Assembly (NCBI RefSeq): GCF_021134715.1
Contig: NC_060025.1
Span: forward strand, 1,736,001 to 1,800,000
Direction of reading: 5' to 3'
Length of the DNA stretch: 64,000 nucleotides
Source of the DNA: Daphnia pulex
Taxonomy: Eukaryota > Arthropoda > Branchiopoda > Diplostraca > Daphniidae
Shown here: piece by piece, positions 19,186-37,553 of the stretch
Numbering within the stretch: position 1 is the stretch's first letter
Layout of the letters: every line of letters begins with the position of its first letter
Made by a program: the position numbers and the translations under genes
The notes under the pieces: model-generated
Database searches by the model: none
The model's input: the letters and a program-made list of their open reading frames with translations, nothing else
What the model was told of the DNA's origin: nothing

Positions 19186-21096
19186 ATGAATCCCAACAGG
19201 AGCGACAATGGCAGTCAAATCGCGATGGATCATCATGTCGTGGCGGATGAAACCGACTGGCAAAATTCGGTGAATCGTAACGTGATCGGCATCGAACCGA
19301 ATGAGTCCACTTTGCTGGTATCGACTGGTGATGTATCAGACGGTGACGATCCGTTTTGGAGCAAAGAACAGCTGATTCTGATTGAAAATTTCCCCGCAAA
19401 CGCATTCGTCGTCATGGGCTTGATTGTCTCAATCATCGGAATTTTTGGGCTTGTTGCCAATGGAATGGTACTCTTCATCTTTTCCAGGTATAATTCAATT
19501 ACCTTTTCTCTTTACTTCCCTTTGAAGTTGCTTCCGGCTCTTTGCGCTCCGGATGTTATTTGCCATTCCTGCTGGCCGCTTTACTTCATTTCAATTGATT
19601 GTAATTAAATATCAGGCAGCTTCTTCTCCCCTCGTCAAATCATTTCTAATCTCCAATTAATTCGTTTTCACCGTTTCATTCAAAGATTCAAACGACTCCG
19701 ATCGCCACCGGCCAATACGTTCATCATCAATTTAGCGTTCAGCGACATGTCGGCGTCGATCCTTCACTCGATGGCCGCCTATTCCAATTTCAACGGCCGC
19801 TGGGCGTTCGGTCGGCTGGGCTGCGAACTCTACGCTATGGGTGTTGGATTTTTCGGCTTCGTTTCGATCCTGACGTTCAGCGCCATCGCCTGCGAACGGT
19901 GTCTGGTCATCGCCGGTCCAGCTACTAGATCAGCCGTCGGCCTGGCCGATGGACATTGGAAAGTCAGCCGAACTCAGGCTCAAAAAGTGTGCGCCTTAAT
20001 TTGGCTGCACTGCGCCATTCTTGTGTCGATGCCTTTTTTCGGTTGGTCGTCCTACGTGCCGGAAGGAATGCTGACCAGCTGCTCGTGGGATTACACGACC
20101 AAGACGGCGGCCAACCGGGCCTATTACATCCTACTCCTCACCACCGGTTTCCTGCTACCTTTGATGCTCATTTGCGCCAGTTACGGGCGAATTATGGCCT
20201 CGGTCGTGTGGCACGCCCGTCAAATGGTCTGCATCAATTCACAGAACAGCGCCTTCCGTAAACTCCGACGTCAGACGGAAATCAGGACGGCCCAAATTGT
20301 TGTCACGCTCATCCTCGTTTACCTGACGGCCTGGACACCCTACGCCATCGTGACGCTCATCGGACAATTCGGCTCGGAGGATTCCCACTTGTCTCCCATG
20401 GCCACCGCCATTCCGGCCTATTTCGCCAAAACGGCCGTGGTTCTGGATCCGCTGGTCTACGGATTCTCTCATCCGCACTTCCGCAATTCGCTGAGACATT
20501 TCATGGCCAATTTGGCCGACGTGGCTCACAACAACAAGAAGGCCAAGAGTTCCAGCGTCCGTTACAATCGCGACGGGGTTGCCTTGCCAAACCAAGGAGA
20601 ATTAAACAGTAAAAGTTGGCCGACTGGCCGTCGAGCTAACCGCAATTCTTTTGGCAGCAGTTACCAGTCCCGCGGAATGACCGTCTACCCGACGGCCAGC
20701 GCCTGTTGCCGGACATTACAAGGAGTGCACGGCGATAAATCCAACAATCAACGGCGGATGTTGAGGACGTTTCGCGATTTATCGGTCGAATCGGCCAACG
20801 TCAAGACGGTCCACTACGCCAACAGATCGCCACCGAACGTTGGCGATTTAGAAATGAGCACCAATAATTGCGTGGCCCTCATTCCCAGCATTCCCGGCGC
20901 CGACACTCAACACAAGGCCAACAAGACGAGCCCAGCAGATGACGCAAAGCATCGTAAAGTCGTTAATAACCGCCAAGTCTACGCCTCCGTTAATAATTTC
21001 AAGTACAAAGTGCGCAACGCCGAGTTCCACAGCGAATGTGCTGGACTTTCGACTCTGTCACAGATTACGGTTGAAGCCCAGCCAAGCAATATTTAG
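19186..21096 (+). CDS. Arthropsin-like opsin, tandem copy 1
   Basis: Two coding exons (19186-19487, 19686-21096) encode 570 residues. It is a seven-transmembrane rhodopsin-class receptor with the retinal-binding lysine in AYFAKTAVV (Lys349). The helix 3 end is ERC in place of DRY. A tyrosine sits three residues after the conserved helix 3 cysteine, as at position 113 of r-type opsins. The second extracellular loop has SYVPEG, giving the Glu181-type counterion, and TSCSWDY with the disulphide cysteine. Helix 7 ends DPLVY, then SHPHFR. These features fit the r-type/arthropsin side of the family; the ciliary-type pteropsins do not have the HPxFR end. The long C-terminal tail ends in a block (FKYKVRNAEFHSEC) shared with the paralogue. 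Arthropsins are known from Daphnia. The upstream intron separates a 5' UTR exon. The second intracellular loop has nine extra residues relative to copy 2. Confidence 0.85.
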
Positions 21097-26015: not shown

Positions 26016-27822
26016 ATGAATTTCAGTAGCGATCGAAGAGTTGGTGAAGCGGAAAAACTGATGATGGAAGCAGCAGTCGATTGGCTGATGCAAGTTCTCG
26101 ATCGAAACACGAGCGGAATCCATCCTAATGAATCCACTTTGCTGGTGGAGGGCGATGATGACGATCCATTTTGGAGCCAAGAACAGCTGATTCTCATTGA
26201 GAATTTCCCCGCAAACGCATTCGTCGTTATGGGCTTGATTGTCTCAATCATCGGCATCTTCGGGCTTGTTGCCAATGGAATGGTCCTCTTCATCTTTTCC
26301 AGGTATAATTCAATTATCTTTTTATCTATTTCCCTTTGAAGTTTCCCGGCTTTCCTTGGGCGACGGATCTTGTATATTTGCCGCCTTTACTGGCCCTTAC
26401 CTATCAATGGCTGACTATTTCCTTTTAATTTATTACATTTATAATAAAAGATTAGCCCAGCTTCTTCTAATCTCTCCAATTTAATTCGTGTTTTTAAATG
26501 TTTCAAGATTCAAACGACTCCGATCACCTCCAGTTAATACGTTCATCATCAATTTGGCGTTCAGCGACATGTTGTCGTCGATCCTTCACTCTATGGCCGC
26601 CTATTCGAATTTCAACGGCCGCTGGGCGTTCGGTCGTCTGGGCTGCAAACTCTACGCCATGGGCATCACTTGCTTCGGACTGGTCTCCATTTTAACGTTC
26701 AGCGCCATCGCTTGCGAACGGTGTCTAGTCATCGGTGTGGCCAGCAGTCGCTTTAAGGTGAGCCGATCGCAGGCCAAAAAGGCCTGCTGTTTCATATGGT
26801 TGCACTGCGCCGTTCTTGTGTCGATGCCTTTGTTCGGCTGGTCGTCCTACGTGCCGGAAGGGCTTTTGACGACCTGCTCCTGGGATTACAAGACACGGAC
26901 AGTGTCCAATCGGGCGTATTACGTCCTTCTCCTTTCCGCCGGATTCTTCCTTCCCTTGTTAGTCATCTTTGTCAGTTACGGTCGAATCATGTCGTCGGTC
27001 ATGTCGCAGGCCCGCCAGATGATCTGCATCAATTCACAGAACAGCGTCTTGCGCAAATTGCGACGTCAGACGGAAATCAGGACGGCCCAAATTGTTGTCA
27101 CGCTCATCCTCGTTTACCTGACGGCCTGGACGCCCTACGCCATCGTGACGCTCATCGGACAATTCGGCTCCAAAGATTACCAACTATCTCCAATGGCCAC
27201 GGCCATTCCGGCCTATTTCGCCAAAACGGCCGTGGTTTTGGATCCGCTGGTCTACGGATTTTCTCATCCGCACTTCCGGACATCTCTCAAGAATTACCTG
27301 TCCAATGTGTGCGGTTCCCGGAATCTGAAAATCGGCTCCGACATCCGGCCGCACAACCACAGTGGCGGAATGTCCAAGTGCAGCAGCAAAAGTTGGCCAG
27401 GCGGAATGCCCGGCAACAGCAGCTACCAGTCGCGCGGAATGACGGTTTATCCGACTAGCGCTTGTTGCGCTCTGCGTATCTGCGAGCCGCACAATTGCAC
27501 GCGGATGAATTCGTCCGCAGCTTCGGCTGTTGCTACAACTGGCGCCGATAATGGCCAGCGCCGGATGTTGCGCACTTTCCGCGAACTATCCCTACACGAC
27601 GTCCAGCAGCACGAAACGAGCTTTAATAATAAAACATCCAACTGTCGAAGACCTAGCGCCGCTACCACAATGGGCCGGCATCCATCCATCCGGCGGAATA
27701 GTCAGCAGACTCACCAAGCGGATCATCATTTATTCCGTCAGTTCAAGTACAAAGTTCGCAATGCCGAATTCCACAGCGAATGTTGTGGACCGTCGACTTT
27801 GGTAGTCGTCGGAGCTCATTGA
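26016..27822 (+). CDS. Arthropsin-like opsin, tandem copy 2
   Basis: Two coding exons (26016-26302, 26508-27822) encode 533 residues. I start at the ATG at 26016 because the frame upstream has no ATG before a stop at 25962. All landmarks of copy 1 are present: Lys335 in AYFAKTAVV, ERC at the end of helix 3, the r-type tyrosine, SYVPEG and the TTCSWDY disulphide loop, DPLVY and SHPHFR. The tail ends with the same FKYKVRNAEFHSEC block. The intron sits at the same place, after the FIFSR codon in helix 1, and its first bases resemble those of copy 1. Helices 6 and 7 are almost identical to copy 1 in DNA, while helices 3-5 and the tail have diverged. AATAAA lies at 27830. Likely a Gq-type light receptor of photoreceptor or brain cells; that role is inferred from the family. 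Confidence 0.85.
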
Positions 27823-29688
27823 AAATTTTAATAAAAACCCAACCCTAAATCTTATATAATTACATATCCATGTCATATGTTAAACCCCAAAAAATTGATT
27901 CGCAAATCATTTGGAGAAAATGTAAATACAATTGATTGAATTACAAAATGACGCAGCCTGCTGTGCAATACACACTAAGTTGTGCATAGATTATGCACAT
28001 AATAGAAAGTTTGAGACAGAGCGTTGGCTGGTATAGTTGAGAGCACTCTAATAATTATTACGTTCCACGTCCTTTTTCTGCTTGAGGATTCCCAGAGGTT
28101 CTAATTTAGAGAGACAACCATCCGAGTTCCGGCCCCCGATTCCTCGTACCACTTCTGTTGGAATATTGATTGCTCTTTGAGCGGAGCAGAACAGTATAAG
28201 GATTTCCTCGAATGATTAGCGCCACTTTCCCTGTGATATGTGACGTCATTTGAAACATCGGCTACTTGACTCAACCAGCAAGTGTTTGGCTCATCAAATC
28301 GGAAAGATGAAATCTTTTTTTTTTGTTGAACGTAAATGTAATTATTAATGGGAGAGAGATATAGACCTTATTGGCATTCCTAATGGGGCAATTACGAAGT
28401 TTGGATTGACGTACAGAGAGTTTCAGAGCAATTCAAACCCTAAAAAAAATGTTATTATACGAACTGAATTCAATGCATATGGAAGGAGGATATAGAGTAC
28501 GAATAGGAGTACTAATCCTTCTTCTTTGAATTACACTTCAAATAGTTCGATTGAACGTTTGCTGTTACAAGATATTATTGGCGGGAAGTTTATTCCCGAA
28601 AAGGATTTCCAGTGATGCCGGAAATATCAAAAGAAAATTCTCTGAATTTGAATACCGAATTGCAAGCCTTCTCTAAAAGTCTATAATTTTTGTCGTTGGT
28701 GCAAAAAATTTGAATAATGCGCGTGTTCGTGAATTTGTTGTGAATTCGTGAATTCCAAGTCGGGTTCATTTGCATATGACAAATGGCAAAACTGTCACTG
28801 ACGACTCGATTCTTTTAGCTAGTACTAGAATGTTTTGTATAATATACAAATTTGCTGGTTCAATATTATCACGCAAAATGTACACTGTACATGCATCACA
28901 CATTGTTTGAATGACGTAAGCAATTAATTCATCTCCGACAGAGGGCAAGAAGTTCGACTGTCATTTGTTTTAATCCTCGTTCACTTCATGTCGTCTAGTC
29001 CCTCATTCACGTCATTACACATTCAAGACTGTCGAGGACAATAATCTCTCCAGAGAAGCAGTCAGACTTAGTAAGAGAAGGTAATAATCTTTGATTTGTA
29101 TCAAGCCATATTGTTTAAGTCGTTAAATGTCCAACCAAACTAAGAAATTAATTTCCGAGTGTATCTTGGGGTGTCGTGATTCTCGACGTCTGATTGTCAA
29201 CATTGTATGTTAAAATTTAATCTCTGCCTTCAATGTAGTACTTGAAGCATGTAGAAAAGTGATTACTCTCTGTACCCTGAAGATCAAATTCTTTTTTTCC
29301 CATTACTTGTCATTGTTGTGGAAAGAGTGGGAGACGTCTTCACGTTCAGTTCAATTTCAATGCCCTCGTTGGTTTTCACGTGGTTTCCTTCAAAGCTGAG
29401 AAAAAAAAGGGGCGATCGATGACTGCTCGCTTTTAATGTAACCTGACGTAATATTGCATAACAGTAATTGCTATTTTAAAGTGGATAGTAAATTATGGTG
29501 AGTTGCCAAGAGTTTATCAGAATCGTTCAATTTTTTCTGCTGCCCAATTTGTTCTGAAGTCCCTTAAAAGGCACCCAATTGTGACCCTTATATAATCTTA
29601 ATTATTTCATTAAGAGGTAGTTATGTAGAAAATTTGATGTTTTTAAATGCACCATTTTGAATGATTCTTCTTTTTTTTATTTTAGATG
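27823..29688. other. Intergenic between arthropsin 2 and the snoRNA host locus
   Basis: Polyadenylation signal of the opsin at 27830-27835. Beyond it I see no gene; the 60-codon frames at 28590-28948 on the minus strand are not convincing. The stretch 28980-29090 may hold the start of the transcript that hosts the snoRNAs, with a possible donor at 29081 (GAGAAG then GTAATA), but this is weak. Confidence 0.45.
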
Positions 29689-29857
29689 ACTCAAATGAGA
29701 TATACCATTCAAGGATTGGTAATACCATTTGTGCTGGTATTCTACTTACTTTCTCCTACCTTCTATGGCTCAACCTTTTGTTTTGTTCATCGGACCTTAC
29801 CAGGAAGTCAACGGTCTAGGTAGGCCAACAACTTTTTCCCCCTTTTTATCATCTGCT

Positions 29858-29991
29858 ATCCTCAAATCTTGGCCATGGTGTTTGTTAAATTCAAGCATTG
29901 TGGAATGCAAAAGGAGGTATATTATCAAAAGTTGAAGTCTTCGATGCCATAGCCAGAACTGCTCTTGGGATCCTCTAGCTTCTGCACAATT
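29858..29991 (+). ncRNA. H/ACA-box snoRNA, copy 1
   Basis: About 134 nt with hairpin-hinge-hairpin-tail architecture. The 5' hairpin has a 4-bp lower stem (CCTC/GAGG), an internal loop and a 12-bp upper stem (CCATGGTGTTTG with CAAGCATTGTGG, including G-U pairs) closed by TTAAATT. The H box is ATATTA (29919-29924). The 3' hairpin closes with GTTGAAG/CTTCTGC. ACA is at 29986-29988, three nucleotides from the inferred 3' end. It lies inside a candidate intron. Its paralogue at 31193 keeps every element. H/ACA RNAs guide pseudouridylation with dyskerin; I could not assign a target. Confidence 0.75.
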
Positions 29992-31192
29992 TCAGTAATT
30001 GAATTCCTTGACTCTATGCCATTCAGCAGCTCTAGTGTCAATCGACACTTTATAATAAGACGAGCTTTCGTTATTTAAAATACGTGATGCATCCTTTTGA
30101 CATTTCAAAGTCATCTAAATATTCATATACCCATTTTCATGTTCTTTTGTTGTTTCATATTTTGTTACAGTGGTGGAATCCGTTGAAACGCTTCATTCAG
30201 AAACGAAGGTAGTTTAAAATCACTTTAGAACTTGTAAATTATTCTTTTTTACTTGTTAGTGTCCATAGCAACACGACTTGAAAATGCACAAAAAAATTAC
30301 TTGTGTGCATTATGTCTGTTTAGATTATCATCCCTCTTGAGTGGTTTTTTTTTTATTCTTTCCAGGAATTAGCTTTATTTGAATGTCGTGCGTCCAGCAG
30401 AACCCCTTTGTGGCGAATAGAATGAAAAGATCCACGTCCAATGTGATTCTCAAGACGTTGCCGTAGTTGGAGCAATGTAGGCGTGGTGAGAAGCACTGGT
30501 ATAAGAACACTTATTAAGAATTAAAGAGAAATCCGATACTGAGAATAGGATTTCTGTCGCCCACGATAGGTCAACAACAACTGGTATCAAATGGACACGT
30601 CTGAATAAACTTGCTATTCGTATACCCTTCTCGGGATTCATTTGTGCGCTAGCTGCACTCGACGAGTAGCCTACCGACCTTTTGGAAACGTGTGAGTAAC
30701 TTCATGATTCTATACAATAGCTACCCACGTGTTTCTTCTCCCGTTCCGACAGATACTACAGGTTCGTGAGTTATTGATTTTTCCTTTACTTTTTATTTGC
30801 TCTATTGCCGCTCAATAGATCCGCAGGACATTAATGTCTTTGAAGTGTGCAGAAGTGGTGTGCAGCTGTTGCTACGGGCTGTGTGGTTCGTTTTCCCATG
30901 TAGAGATAAAATGTTGCGAGTTCCCTTTTCTTTTAAGTGGCATTGAAGTTCTAGATTGGCGAATCAAAAACTGTAAAGCAGAAAAATTTACTTTCCTGAT
31001 TTTATCCAACAGACGAATGTCTGAAAATTCGAGCGACAATTCATGAGTTGTTAGCATTGCTTGTTTAACTGACATTCCTTTCTTTTTTAGGACAATTGCA
31101 TCCCGTCAAGTTGTCTGCAACTATTTTCAAGATGACAGTACTATTGCTCTTTCGTAGGTAATGTGCCTTATTTTAATTTCTTATTTATTGGT

Positions 31193-31325
31193 TTCCTCGA
31201 ATCTTGGCCTTGATGCTTGTTAAATTTAAGCGTCACGGAATGCAAAATTGAGGTAGATAATTGATTAGAAGTCTTCGATACCATAGCCATTACTGCTGTC
31301 GGGATCCTCTAGCTTCTGTACAATT
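31193..31325 (+). ncRNA. H/ACA-box snoRNA, copy 2
   Basis: Paralogue of 29858-29991. CCTC/GAGG lower stem, upper stem CCTTGATGCTTG with TAAGCGTCACGG (one mismatch, several changes compensated relative to copy 1) and the same TTAAATT loop. The H box is AGATAA (31255-31260) and ACA is at 31320-31322. The 3' hairpin is nearly identical to copy 1, including the internal-loop strands TCTTCGAT and GATCCTCTAG, so the 3' guide probably targets the same site. The 5' internal-loop strands are also similar. It lies in a separate candidate intron (31161-31348). Confidence 0.75.
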
Positions 31326-32440
31326 AATTTAATTTGGTTTTCTTAGAATGTTTCAATGGAGTGGGAGTTACTTGAGCTTGGTGTCAGGTGTCGGAGGAAT
31401 CTTCTGATTGCTTCTGATTTTTTCACACCATTGTCAGGTGTTTGTTGGGTAAGTTATATTCTAAAACTTAACAGTCTGATGAGAAAAGGTACTAGAGGGG
31501 CTGGAGGGGGCAAGTTTTACCTGTCAACTTTCTGTACGTTAGTCTCTCCCGAGAAACAGTAATAAGGGAGTCCGTTCAATATTTTTCTATTGTGATGGGG
31601 TTCGTGATAGTAGCCGAAAGTTGAGTAAAATTTCTCCGTTGGTTTAGGTAGGTCATATAGCTCCTACAGTCGCTGCTTTCATGATGTAATTACTTAAATA
31701 GGGCCATGTTCCATCCAAAAACTCTCCGCGAGTTTTATTGTCTTGACATCGTGTTTTACATAAGTAGGTGGTTACAAAATAAATTGGGCGGGTTACACGG
31801 TGTGCGTGATCCTTCTTGGTGAACTAATAAGTAAATTTTGTAAATTATTATGTGAATTGGAGAAACTGAAAAACATAACACCTACTACTGCGATTTGTTA
31901 ATTCACGACTCGTTAAAAGTAATTGGTCGAATTTTTAAGTTTGGTAAAATTCTCGCTGGGTGCGTTAGTTTAGTAAATATTTGCTACCGTCACTTGAATT
32001 AAAATTTTAACTAATTTAATTCTTGCTCTGGCATTAAGCACTGTTTAGCTTTGTCTTGTATAAATATTAAATTGTGTTAAATGAAAACTTTTCTGCTTTT
32101 ACACAGGTTGGCGTGTTCTGTAAAGTTTTGATGTATGCATTCGCCAAATTCAAGATCGCTGTTTACAGTGAAACCAATATGTGAGTTAAAACAAACAATT
32201 CTGTTTTAAGAGTAACATGATTAATATAACCATACCATCTTTCGGCTGAAGAATGATGAAATCTAATAATATGATTCAAATTTTCTTTAGAACAAATTTT
32301 TGTTTTTGTGTTTAGACAAGTAATTTGTGTCTCTAAAAATATTTAACGTTTACAGAAACCGACAGAATTGTGCGTCTCCAGGCGATCGCGACTTAAGGAG
32401 CAATACTGGGTTTGGTTATTATAAACTTGTCGCCATCCTA

Positions 32441-33650
32441 AGAAATCAATTATAAGAAATCAATTATTGTACCCGATATATAAACAATATCTAAACAAAA
32501 AATGTTAAATTGAAAAAGTTCAACTGGATTAAAATAGTGAAGCGAATTTCATTAATAAATATTCGTGATTTTGTTATTATTAAATGTTTTATTTGGGATA
32601 TTGTTTATCTTTTCCTTAGTACGATTATCAAGCGATTCGAGTTTAAACTTTCTCCCTTTAACCGACGAATAATCGACATGTCATATTGGTTAGGTAAAGT
32701 TGTGAAACAATGTTAATAGTTTATATGATTACTCAGTTACCATCCAATTAATTTTTTCACATCTAGGGCTGTTAGATACTAGTGAAGATTTATGTTAACT
32801 TACGGTGAATGGACGATATTCGATATCGATATCGAATAGACTGGATCCAGTCTCTTACTACAGGATTTTCTTACAGGTGAAATGCACTTTGATTAGCAAA
32901 TTAGGTAACGTGTTCTATTATTCATATCTAGTGCTGTTTTGTGTATTGGTCAATAGTCATTATATCTAATCGATGTGCCTTAATTATCCTTTAAACGAAT
33001 TCAAGAGATATTCCACTCTCGTCCACTCTTGAACCTTCCGCGAACACAACGATGCCGCTAATTAACTTTCTCTAACTAGGATGTGTGGCAACTGGAAAAC
33101 TACAGCGAAAATTTCAAGAAATTGTAAGTTGTTGGTTCGAAGTTTGGAATTAATAAAATATAAATTAACCATGTTTCTCAGCAGAATAGTCTACTGTCAG
33201 CTGAAAGACGGGGAAAGGTATCCAGAAGTTCATCATTCATGACAAGAGGCAGATCTATTAAAAGAAAATCAAATTTTCTGTACAAGAACTTTAGTGAACA
33301 TACGCAACTTTATACAGCTCATCAATTGCCGTTTCGTCGAAAGTAATTAATAGAATGAACAAAAGGGTGTCATTATTGCTTCGTAGGATTTCAGGTAAAG
33401 GTGATGTAGACTAGCATGACATTTAATTATCCTTTCTTGTTTACTTACAATAAGAGCAAAAAGCTATGGGATGGATTATAATCTGGGAGCAATTTTTGTT
33501 GTAATAAGCGTGCAGGTTGCAAGTGCAGGTTACAAGTTCCTTATCATTGTGTAATTCCATTGGTAAACATAAAACAATTAATTCAAGTATTTAATCGTTA
33601 CTGTATTTTGAGTTAGCTATAAATAATGTTATCGCGTAGAAAAATGTATC
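32441..33650. other. Intergenic, no gene recognised
   Basis: AT-rich DNA. The frame at 32510-32716 has no recognisable feature. A short tandem ATCGAT-type palindrome (GATATCGATATCG) lies near 32820-32835. Confidence 0.5.
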
Positions 33651-33722
33651 GGCTCAATGGTCTAGGGGTATGATTCTCGCTTTGGGTGCGAGAGGTCCCG
33701 GGTTCAAATCCCGGTTGAGCCC
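33651..33722 (+). tRNA. tRNA-Pro (UGG)
   Basis: 72-nt cloverleaf. Acceptor stem GGCTCAA/TTGAGCC, anticodon stem CTCGC/GCGAG with loop TTTGGGT (anticodon TGG), T arm with GGTTCAAATCC, discriminator C. Internal A box TGGTCTAGGGGTA and B box are intact, and a TTTTT terminator follows at about 33729. No intron. Confidence 0.97.
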
Positions 33723-34482
33723 AAATCTATTTTTACTTGTTTATTTTTTAAATTCCTGCTCATACGTTCGAAGTCATTATACGAAACTACAGCTAATTCA
33801 TATAATCGTTTTTGACAGTAAGGGTAAGATCAGTGATGCTTAGAAAAAGCCAGATAAAATTATTTAAAACTTAGACAAGAGTTTTTACTTTGTTGCATGT
33901 TTGTCTTGATTGATGCTTCCAGTTAAATGAACTAGCGAATTTAAAAATTCAAATGTTTTATCCGTTTAGTTATTCGTCAATGCGATTATGCTAAGCCTTT
34001 GTAAAATTGCATCTTAAGTTCTTAACCGGTCTTAAAAATAATAATAATAACACAAATAAAAAAGTAGGTCAACGGCAAGTGGCCCTTTTTTGAAGTGGGT
34101 TTTCTTTCCGTTTAGAAAGCGCAAGCCGTTTGGATAGTCCCATAAGCTCGTGTATAAAAACAATTAGAATAATTAACATTATTGATGAATCATGAATTCT
34201 TATAATATACATAATGTTTCCAAATGCCGAGTGTTTCGCCCCGTTATTTTGTTTTGTCCTTGTCTTTTCGCTCGAATCAGTCTGTAATTTACTGGTTTGT
34301 TTAAAGTTGAACGAAAATGGAATTTATCTTGTTCTCTATCGCTGTTAGGTCGTCTCCAATGTAAATTTCCCCCCTTTATTGTGTCTTTAATTTAAGTTTG
34401 GTTCGTGCAACGGTTGAAGAAATTCAATTATTTAACCATTGCTCACATTGTTTATACCTTAACTTTCATCCAAACATTCATC
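33723..34482. other. Spacer between tRNA-Pro genes
   Basis: AT-rich spacer with the Pol III terminator of the first tRNA. No gene recognised. Confidence 0.6.
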
Positions 34483-34554
34483 GGCTCGATGGTCTAGGGG
34501 TATGATTCTCGCTTAGGGTGCGAGAGGTCCCGGGTTCAAATCCCGGTCGAGCCC
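34483..34554 (+). tRNA. tRNA-Pro (AGG), copy 1
   Basis: 72-nt cloverleaf with acceptor GGCTCGA/TCGAGCC, anticodon loop TTAGGGT (AGG, read as IGG after editing) and intact A and B boxes. It differs from the UGG gene in the anticodon and in one acceptor pair (G-C for A-U), a compensated change. TTTTT follows about 10 nt downstream. Confidence 0.97.
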
Positions 34555-35513
34555 ACTGATGTTTTTATCTTTTACTTGCTACAATATTCAATGTAATTCA
34601 TTCTCATGTCAGTCATATTTGTTTAGGATCAGTACAGCTATTTTCATCAAGGAAGAGCTACACTAATGGTAAGCGCGTAGTATCACGGCCAAAGGATCTC
34701 TTTTTTCGTAACGTGCACCGTTTATCAGTCGATTCTTAAGACAATCCGCTGATTTTTCGTTATTAGTTATTTTTATGTTGAATCGATGATTTAGGAACTG
34801 GTAACATACAAGGATCCTGAAAAGCATTTAATTGAACGCATAATTATGTCGCTTACGTTGGTATTCCACATCAAACTCGCTCTACACTCAACAAGTGGTG
34901 ACTTTTCGTTCCTTTTTTTGTTCTTCTACTTAGGTTAATAAGAAACATTAAATTAGGGTCTAACGATTAACTACAACCATTTTCAAAACGTTTTTACGGA
35001 ATTTTCAATCATTTTACATGATACGCTTGGAGAACCGTGGAGAACTTAAAGTGCCTTGACAAAATAAGCAGCGCCATAGCTTGTTGCACATGTTCCATCT
35101 TTAATTTCTTTACATATACTTTACTTTGTTCGACTTTGTTACTTCTCTTCTTGTGATGAGAAATTCAGGTCATTTATAAAGAAAATTATGGAATAAGAAC
35201 ATTGGCATCATTTAAATTTTAAAGTGAAAGTTGCCTGTCAGCACTTGTGTATCAGTGGGAAATACAGAGAACAAGAGTAAACTGTCGTCTACTTTTGATT
35301 GCTGATTTTAGGCAAAACACACCTTTAGTCAATTTTGCAAGTATATTTTCCATTTTTCCGGATTTTGTGGTCGTAAGCCAGTTTCAATTGACGTTTTTAT
35401 CAGGAGCTGTAAATCATTGTAATTTATCCTAACAGTTCCGTAGTTCGACTATCATTGTTTTAAATTCTTCCCTGTGATTTGATTACATAATTACCATGAC
35501 ATCACCATTTATT
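34555..35513. other. Spacer between tRNA-Pro genes
   Basis: AT-rich spacer with no gene recognised; the short frame at 35247-35432 is not supported. Confidence 0.6.
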
Positions 35514-35585
35514 GGCTCGATGGTCTAGGGGTATGATTCTCGCTTAGGGTGCGAGAGGTCCCGGGTTCAAATCCCGGTCGAGCCC
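35514..35585 (+). tRNA. tRNA-Pro (AGG), copy 2
   Basis: Identical to the gene at 34483-34554 over its 72 nt, including anticodon AGG. Flanks are not similar beyond a few bases, so the duplication is old or flank-free. A TTTT terminator follows at about 35597. Confidence 0.97.
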
Positions 35586-35640
35586 AGAACAGTCTCTTTT
35601 AATGGTTTTTACGAAACATAAACATTACGCTATTAGCATT

Positions 35641-36070
35641 AGCGGAGAGGGCTTCCCATTTTCCGGTGGTCACATCTTAACACTAATGCCCACTGGATTC
35701 CGGTGGCCAATAGCACTTTTTGACACTAGCGCCCACTGGGTTCCAGTGGGCAATAGGCGCGATCGTCTTTGGAGTTCTAATGTCGCATACATAGGAATTT
35801 TATTTTTTACGTTAGGTTTTATTAAAAATATCCGACAAAAGAACTCCAGCACGACAGTAGAACTCCACTACGCGACCAGTACGTGACAATAGAACTCCAA
35901 TAAATTCTTGAATAAATTCTTTAATTATTTTCATGATCAATAATAGAACTACATTGAATTTTAAATATTTTAAATGTCCGACAATAGAACTCCAACGATT
36001 TTAAAACTATTTTCATGTCCGACAGTAGAACTCCATTGAATTTTAAATGTCTCAAATGTCCGACAATCCA
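35641..36070. repeat. Composite repeat: tandem hairpins plus CGACAnTAGAACTCC array
   Basis: Left part: two tandem units, 43 bp apart, each starting ACACTA and containing GCCCACTGG...CCAGTGGGC-type hairpins (35680 and 35723; arms perfect in the second). Right part: a motif CGACAnTAGAACTCCA occurs in degenerate form near 35834, 35852, 35884, 35977 and 36017, with one inverted copy near 35773 and a shared tail TTGAATTTTAAAT. This resembles the end structure of a foldback element or a decayed minisatellite; no coding capacity seen. Confidence 0.55.
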
Positions 36071-37553
36071 TCCATCCATGATTCCTTTCTTTCCGTACAG
36101 TCAAACGTGGTAATCGTGGAGGAATCTTTTGGCTCCGTCAGTAGGTGGCTAAAATCAAGTTGTCCCACAGCCGCCAGATGACGCGAGTCTCTTTGAGAGG
36201 AAGACGAAATTTTCGCCATTTTGTTCCCAAACGCCAAGTGGAAAGGTATTCCAAATTCGTTACGGAATTGCGTTGTCAATCTACATTTTCTGATTTTCAG
36301 CATTGAAATTGAATGGTAAATTCTAGTTTGGATTTCTCAAATGTAATTAATCCTAGACGTTGCTGTGTGAATTTACAGTCAATCTAGCATATGATTTCCA
36401 CTTATAATCGATCACGTGGACTGAAACTGCTTTAGTGCTTTCCATTTTGCCGAAATGTCGTCCGTTGTTAGCTGTACCTGTTCGGATGTAGTCTCATCTC
36501 AGGCAGAAACACTGCAGAGGTAGTAGAGTAATTTTGTTGATCAATTTCCCTGCAATGATGCTATAGATTTTATCAGTTGGTGTTCAGGTTGGAGATCCCG
36601 TTGCTTAACTGTTGCAGAATGTGAGCAATCAACAAATTCTGAGCTCCATGGCTGGCATCGTGGCCACAGTGGTTTTGTTGCAGCCAGCTGGTGAAAGGCG
36701 TGATCAAGTCAAGTTGAGCTGCTGCTGCTGCTGCATGCAGTTTATCGAGCTGGTGTTATCCTGAAGTGTCATTGCAGGAACTTTTTGAAATGGTAAGTTG
36801 ATTGAATTTATTGGTTGTAACTTGGGAAGTCTTGCGTCTTTTTTAAAAAGTAAACTCTGATCTGATGTAGACAATAAGTGGTGCTATTTCTTGCTTCCAA
36901 ATAATAGTTTCTGTGAAAGATATCAGAGAGCAATCAGCTTCCTTTGAGTTAACAACTTTCTTCTGATCAAACTAAACAAAAATTTCCGCTCTGTATTACC
37001 AACTCTTTCTAACACTTAAGAATTAGATGTACAGAATTCTCTTTTCATAGGATTTAATCTTCATTTAAAATTTCATTTGCCAATGGAATCTTGGAAAAAT
37101 GTCTTTACACAATATCTTTTGCATCTTAAGTTTGATCATGGAAAATAATATTCCTTTTTCCCCATAGGACTTGGTGATACTTAAACTATGCCTGTGCTGT
37201 TCAATGTACCGTGGTTTTGCAGCCTGCTTCCAGTTGAGAGATGTTATTATGCAGCTGATACCGGATTGAAGAAAAAGAACTGAAGTAGCTGTGCTGGTGT
37301 TCTCCTGAAATTGCTGTGCCACAGGAGTTGCAGATAGTGTTTGGTTCCTCATAGAAGTTTATTTAAAGAGTCTGGAGATGATCAGCCACTTCTGCCTATA
37401 ACTTATGTAAAACTTCAAAGTTGTAAGAAATATACAAGTCAAGTGCTAAACATGATTTTATTATTAGTTATAAGACACAGCAAACAAACAACTTTAAAAG
37501 GAATTGCTTTATTGTCCCACCTCCACCCACAATTCCACCACATTTTACAGTCA
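36071..37553. other. Intergenic, no gene recognised
   Basis: Contains a short GCT repeat near 36717-36734. Some sites look like splice signals, but no coding exon with a recognisable product was found. Confidence 0.5.

Follow-up and report, generated by a model that had tools for sequence, protein, structure and literature searches.

Background

Box H/ACA snoRNAs share a hairpin-hinge-hairpin-tail architecture, an H box of the form ANANNA and an ACA triplet placed three nucleotides before the 3' end. Each of their pockets lies 14–16 nt ahead of a box and presents two guide arms that are complementary to the sequence around a target uridine. In animals, a location on the sense strand of an intron is common for these RNAs, though not obligatory.

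The closest described counterpart of the elements reported here is human SNORA57. According to the published account, the 5' pocket of this RNA guides position 1004 of 18S rRNA and the 3' pocket position 1045/1046; yeast 18S position 947 is the equivalent of human 1004, a single U-to-C change in the SNORA57 5' arm enables action on yeast, and the 5' pocket is described with three unpaired nucleotides (PMC8522698). A literature search for Daphnia together with snoRNA yielded, among the matches listed, no title on such RNAs.

Results

The window analysed here is a 64,000-nt stretch of the Daphnia pulex genome (C9:1736001-1800000), and the genome searched comprises 133 Mb in 13 contigs. The original prediction had placed in this window a duplicated pair of H/ACA snoRNAs in one host locus, 1.3 kb apart. 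The two segments, now regarded as candidate box H/ACA snoRNAs of the SNORA57 kind, lie on the plus strand at 29858..29991 (copy A, 134 nt) and 31193..31325 (copy B, 133 nt); the predicted coordinates, lengths and spacing are all correct, and the aligned copies share 109 of 132 positions. A genome search with A or B as the query produced at least three matches, namely the two copies themselves and a third unit, copy C, on the minus strand of another contig (C10:853379-853508), which is identical to A at 109/131 positions and to B at 112/132. As C lies on a second contig, the family has at least three members, and more diverged copies may be present elsewhere in the genome. The notion of a pair in one host locus thus gives way to three copies at two loci, and what points to a host transcript common to A and B is sequence that resembles splice sites. 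Where only two of the copies have the same base, these are A and B at 6 sites, A and C at 7 and B and C at 9, a split that favours no particular order of duplication.

Ungapped identity is 82–90% within the units, drops to 40–60% over the 15 nt that adjoin them and to 7–40% over the 30 nt beyond, such that similarity ends where the H/ACA unit ends. These limits bear on the proposal that the copies are a repeat without function, mobile or not, whose fold is due to chance, with which the presence of three copies at two loci and folds only mildly better than those of shuffled sequences would agree. A repeat of this kind seems to us exceedingly improbable, given that the matches in 133 Mb number only three (a lower bound), and that variation has spared the boxes and guide arms in addition to respecting the unit boundaries.

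The succession of hairpin, H box, hairpin and ACA box attributed to A and B is borne out by their minimum-energy folds and by the boxes themselves, and C has the same anatomy: in each copy, two hairpins flank the H box and a tail follows. The H box reads AUAUUA in A (29919..29924), AGAUAA in B (31255..31260) and AGAUGA in C, all compatible with ANANNA. The ACA box is present in 3/3 copies (29986..29988 in A; 31320..31322 in B), and similarity fades past ACA+3, the 3' ends of the RNAs being judged here from sequence. The 5' pocket is found 15, 16 and 16 nt from the H box in the three copies, and the 3' pocket 14 nt from ACA when the base of the upper stem is shifted by one pair. Folding of both units, a check proposed with the original prediction, returned the expected layout in A and B with z-scores against shuffles of -1.03 and -2.41 (-1.25 for C), values so modest that folding energy by itself is weak evidence. 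The antisense strand was rejected as the RNA strand, since in A as well as in B it gives a less stable fold than the sense strand does.

A further argument, that the 12-bp upper stem of the 5' hairpin is kept through paired or G-U-tolerated changes as expected for structured RNA, did not survive closer analysis. Standard pairs number 12/12 in A, 11/12 in B and 10/12 in C, so that the stem is complete only in A, and the changes among copies are either one-sided (G-U) or pair-breaking, with no two-sided change at all. When the same number of substitutions was re-placed at random, as many pairs or more were kept in 13% of cases for A to B and in 58% for A to C; when partners were re-dealt by shuffling, the share of pairing was the same (94.9%), with 385/500 shuffles equal or higher. 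Covariation was therefore rejected as proof of structured RNA and lends no support, although the repeat is real; the pairing with targets described below is a better argument.

The broken pairs of this stem, two in C and one in B, together with variation at 32 of the 134 columns, would suit a state of decay in which one or two of the duplicates have lost their expression or their guide function. What varies and what does not argues against such decay, which we consider improbable: the boxes are intact in the three copies, as are all 28 of the 28 guide columns, compared with 74 invariant columns out of the other 106 (Fisher P 1.7e-4). The stem of the 3' hairpin is also largely invariant among the copies.

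Copy C sits inside a DDX5/DDX17-like helicase gene, in the intron between two exons and on the sense strand. The two flanking exons and the next one, translated and joined, match human DDX17 over 218 residues with no length difference (6uv0, E 6.9e-118), and the joined translation also matches DDX5. This intron is 204 nt long (L002:1662 to L002:1459, in descending coordinates), and the unit starts approximately 31 nt past the donor. For A and B, the intronic position is suggestive: A starts about 38 nt after a donor-like GT at 29820 and is followed by an acceptor-like CAG at 30170, while B starts about 35 nt after a donor-like GT at 31158, with an acceptor-like site at 31437. The possible introns would thus be 29820..30170 and 31158..31437 on the plus strand, in a region where many such sites occur.

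Guide pockets were compared with 18S sequences from a tardigrade (a stretch given in PMC5830310) and from six eukaryotic rDNA contigs drawn from prokaryote bins and placed by Rfam, not from the Daphnia genome itself. Two patterns and one 18S DNA query found no match to this genome's own rDNA, which may be unassembled, and no 18S turned up when viral contigs were scanned with two patterns. The six contigs (L006-L011) are prokaryote-MAG contigs with eukaryotic rDNA, and hence mis-binned; L007 and L009 carry group I introns. Since the rDNA contigs were fetched by a pattern containing the first of the two sites described below, the presence of that site in them is no result; a result is that the 5' pocket fits no other site as well.

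With its fold left unchanged, the 5' pocket of each copy forms 5 + 6 = 11 Watson-Crick pairs with GCAUU[UG]CCAAGA of ecdysozoan 18S rRNA. The left arm, UCUUGG, pairs with CCAAGA (29867..29872 in A; 31202..31207 in B) and the right arm, AAUGC, with GCAUU (29904..29908 in A; 31239..31243 in B). The outermost U of the left arm is opposite A in L011 and the tardigrade, and opposite G in the other five rDNA loci. The 3' pocket, again identically in the three copies, matches AAGUUAGAGG[UU]CGAAGGC in 10 + 7 = 17 contiguous pairs, two of them G-U; in ecdysozoan 18S rRNA the site is also written GUUAGAGG[UU]CGAAGGC. Its left arm, GUCUUCG, pairs with CGAAGGC with one G-U (29937..29943 in A; 31271..31277 in B), and its right arm, CCUCUAGCUU, pairs with AAGUUAGAGG with the other (29972..29981 in A; 31306..31315 in B). 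The last bases of the right arm double as lower stem; by eye, some 11 of the 17 pairs fall in the internal loop as folded and the remainder require the lower stem to be opened. The two sites are 41 nt apart, and the sequence of the second is present in insect 18S primers given in four papers (PMC5977256, PMC8964073, PMC9290502, PMC11942876).

The specificity of these fits was assessed with shuffled guide arms. Under strict Watson-Crick scoring, the 11-pair score of the 5' pocket was reached anywhere in the rRNA used by 6/5000 shuffled arm sets; under G-U tolerant scoring it was reached by 9/400 and 40/2000 shuffles, and the score of the 3' pocket by 0/2000. Pairing at the exact sites was reached by 0/1,000,000 shuffles for each pocket. 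The initial geometry of the 3' pocket had given no good 18S site and was discarded; a shift of the upper-stem base by one pair yielded the second site. Because this geometry was settled once SNORA57 was suspected, with the target in mind, a free-geometry control was also run. With a sliding pocket base allowed, shuffles reach the score in 35/150 cases for the 5' pocket and 2/150 for the 3' pocket, so neither pocket is proof by itself.

These sliding-base frequencies lend some weight to the possibility that the copies are true H/ACA RNAs with another target, be it elsewhere in rRNA, in a spliceosomal RNA or in an mRNA, and that the 18S fit is due to chance; for the 3' pocket, alternative fits to LSU rRNA do exist, with several G-U pairs. 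Among spliceosomal RNAs, the comparison covered U2 and a U6-like locus, and both were rejected as targets, neither offering a good fit and the best U6 match looking degenerate by eye. The best sites of the two pockets lie 41 nt apart and, by prediction, are the very pair that a single known RNA guides with its own two pockets. It is hard to envisage a chance origin for one RNA with both pockets on the two sites in SNORA57 order, and we regard a different target as unlikely. Support for the assignment of A, B and C as H/ACA guide RNAs comes from the layout that the three copies share, from the location of C on the sense strand of an intron and from the fit of both pockets to 18S rRNA.

Profile searches did not recover the copies as members of a known family. 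No Rfam H/ACA family matches at 28000-36000 or 29850-31340 up to E = 10; in particular, the SNORA57 model (RF00191, cut-off 40 bits) has no match at 29850-31340 up to E 10, and its only match in the genome lies elsewhere, at 19.1 bits, a search in which 9 of 14 prokaryote controls also give matches. Gathering-level Rfam matches in the window consist only of three tRNAs. These are tRNA-Pro genes on the plus strand (33651-33722, 34483-34554, 35514-35585), in a row and within 5 kb past the snoRNA copies; the anticodon is TGG in one of them and AGG in the other two.

A putative box C/D RNA similar to SNORD51 (RF00280) lies at 32209..32282, approximately 880 nt downstream of B on the same strand (31.1 bits; E 0.027 for 8 kb). 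It spans the whole model and its D' guide, ACCAUCUUUCGG, is identical to the consensus, while its score is under the 50-bit cut-off and its final D box is AUGA. The 12 nt upstream of D' are complementary to the LSU rRNA of L009, a match not found in the partial LSU of L011; a genome search with RF00280 gave nothing at E 0.001. This candidate is perhaps part of the same host transcript as A and B, and such a neighbour would be consistent with a locus that hosts several snoRNAs. A simple scan for further C/D RNAs at 28501-36600 found none and also missed the SNORD51-like candidate, and is therefore insensitive.

Other features were observed in passing. Upstream of the copies, also on the plus strand, tandem open frames at 19609-21096 and 26485-27822 encode rhodopsin-family receptors (Pfam 7tm_1), opsin-like by eye, and at 35860-36070 (+) a short phrase like GACAATAGAACTCCA is repeated several times, as judged by eye. 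Of 16 U2-like matches in the genome, 14 lie on contig C8, for example near 6.94-6.97 Mb; some of these follow one another at a regular spacing of 8,871 nt (6946653, 6955524, 6964395), which suggests a tandem array.

Discussion

We place at roughly 0.8 the probability that A, B and C work like SNORA57, that is, as box H/ACA snoRNAs that are released from introns and act as redundant guides of two 18S uridines. On this model, the three RNAs would be released from introns of host transcripts, an intron that is evident from the sequence for C and presumed for A and B, and would be bound by the dyskerin complex, as predicted from their RNA class. The 5' pocket would then hold the GCAUU[U]GCCAAGA stretch of 18S rRNA and, 41 nt downstream, the 3' pocket would hold GUUAGAGG[U]UCGAAGGC, with conversion of the bracketed uridines to pseudouridines. 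In human 18S numbering these would be 1004 and 1045, an assignment that combines the 41-nt spacing with remarks in PMC8522698, which come without a printed sequence. The identical guide arms of the three copies predict redundancy. What began as an unnamed repeat is thereby turned into a testable prediction that involves two 18S uridines and three guide RNAs missed by RF00191.

The suggestion that A and B may be undescribed guide RNAs holds insofar as neither matches any Rfam H/ACA family, but the targets predicted for them are the ones that human SNORA57 serves, and hence the specificity itself is already known. Since the resemblance lies in the predicted targets and RF00191 failed, we describe A, B and C as like SNORA57 and as its probable counterparts in arthropods; they would be new members of a kind of guide RNA already described. 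Should this be true, the two targets of one guide RNA have been conserved between crustaceans and humans even as its sequence diverged too far for RF00191 to recognise, and relatives of this sort can be recovered by comparing guide arms with rRNA. The interest of the case lies in the deep conservation of a dual specificity, in a 5' pocket with the standard two nucleotides and in the occurrence of three copies in two hosts.

The comparison with the published description of human SNORA57 extends to several particulars. The same two 18S sites are predicted for A, B and C, with the 5' pocket on the upstream and the 3' pocket on the downstream site, and the U-to-C change that adapts human SNORA57 to yeast agrees with the arm U of the copies, which faces A in the animal sequences and G in the remaining loci. 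The 5' pocket differs, with the standard two unpaired nucleotides in A, B and C and three in human SNORA57. We tentatively propose, at slightly less than even odds, that the double specificity of SNORA57, with a two-nucleotide 5' pocket, is older than the split between arthropods and vertebrates and is served in this lineage by three redundant copies in two hosts; if so, the three-nucleotide pocket of the human RNA is a later departure. The Daphnia RNAs, three copies at two loci, are likened to human SNORA57 by their predicted targets and by that paper's description.
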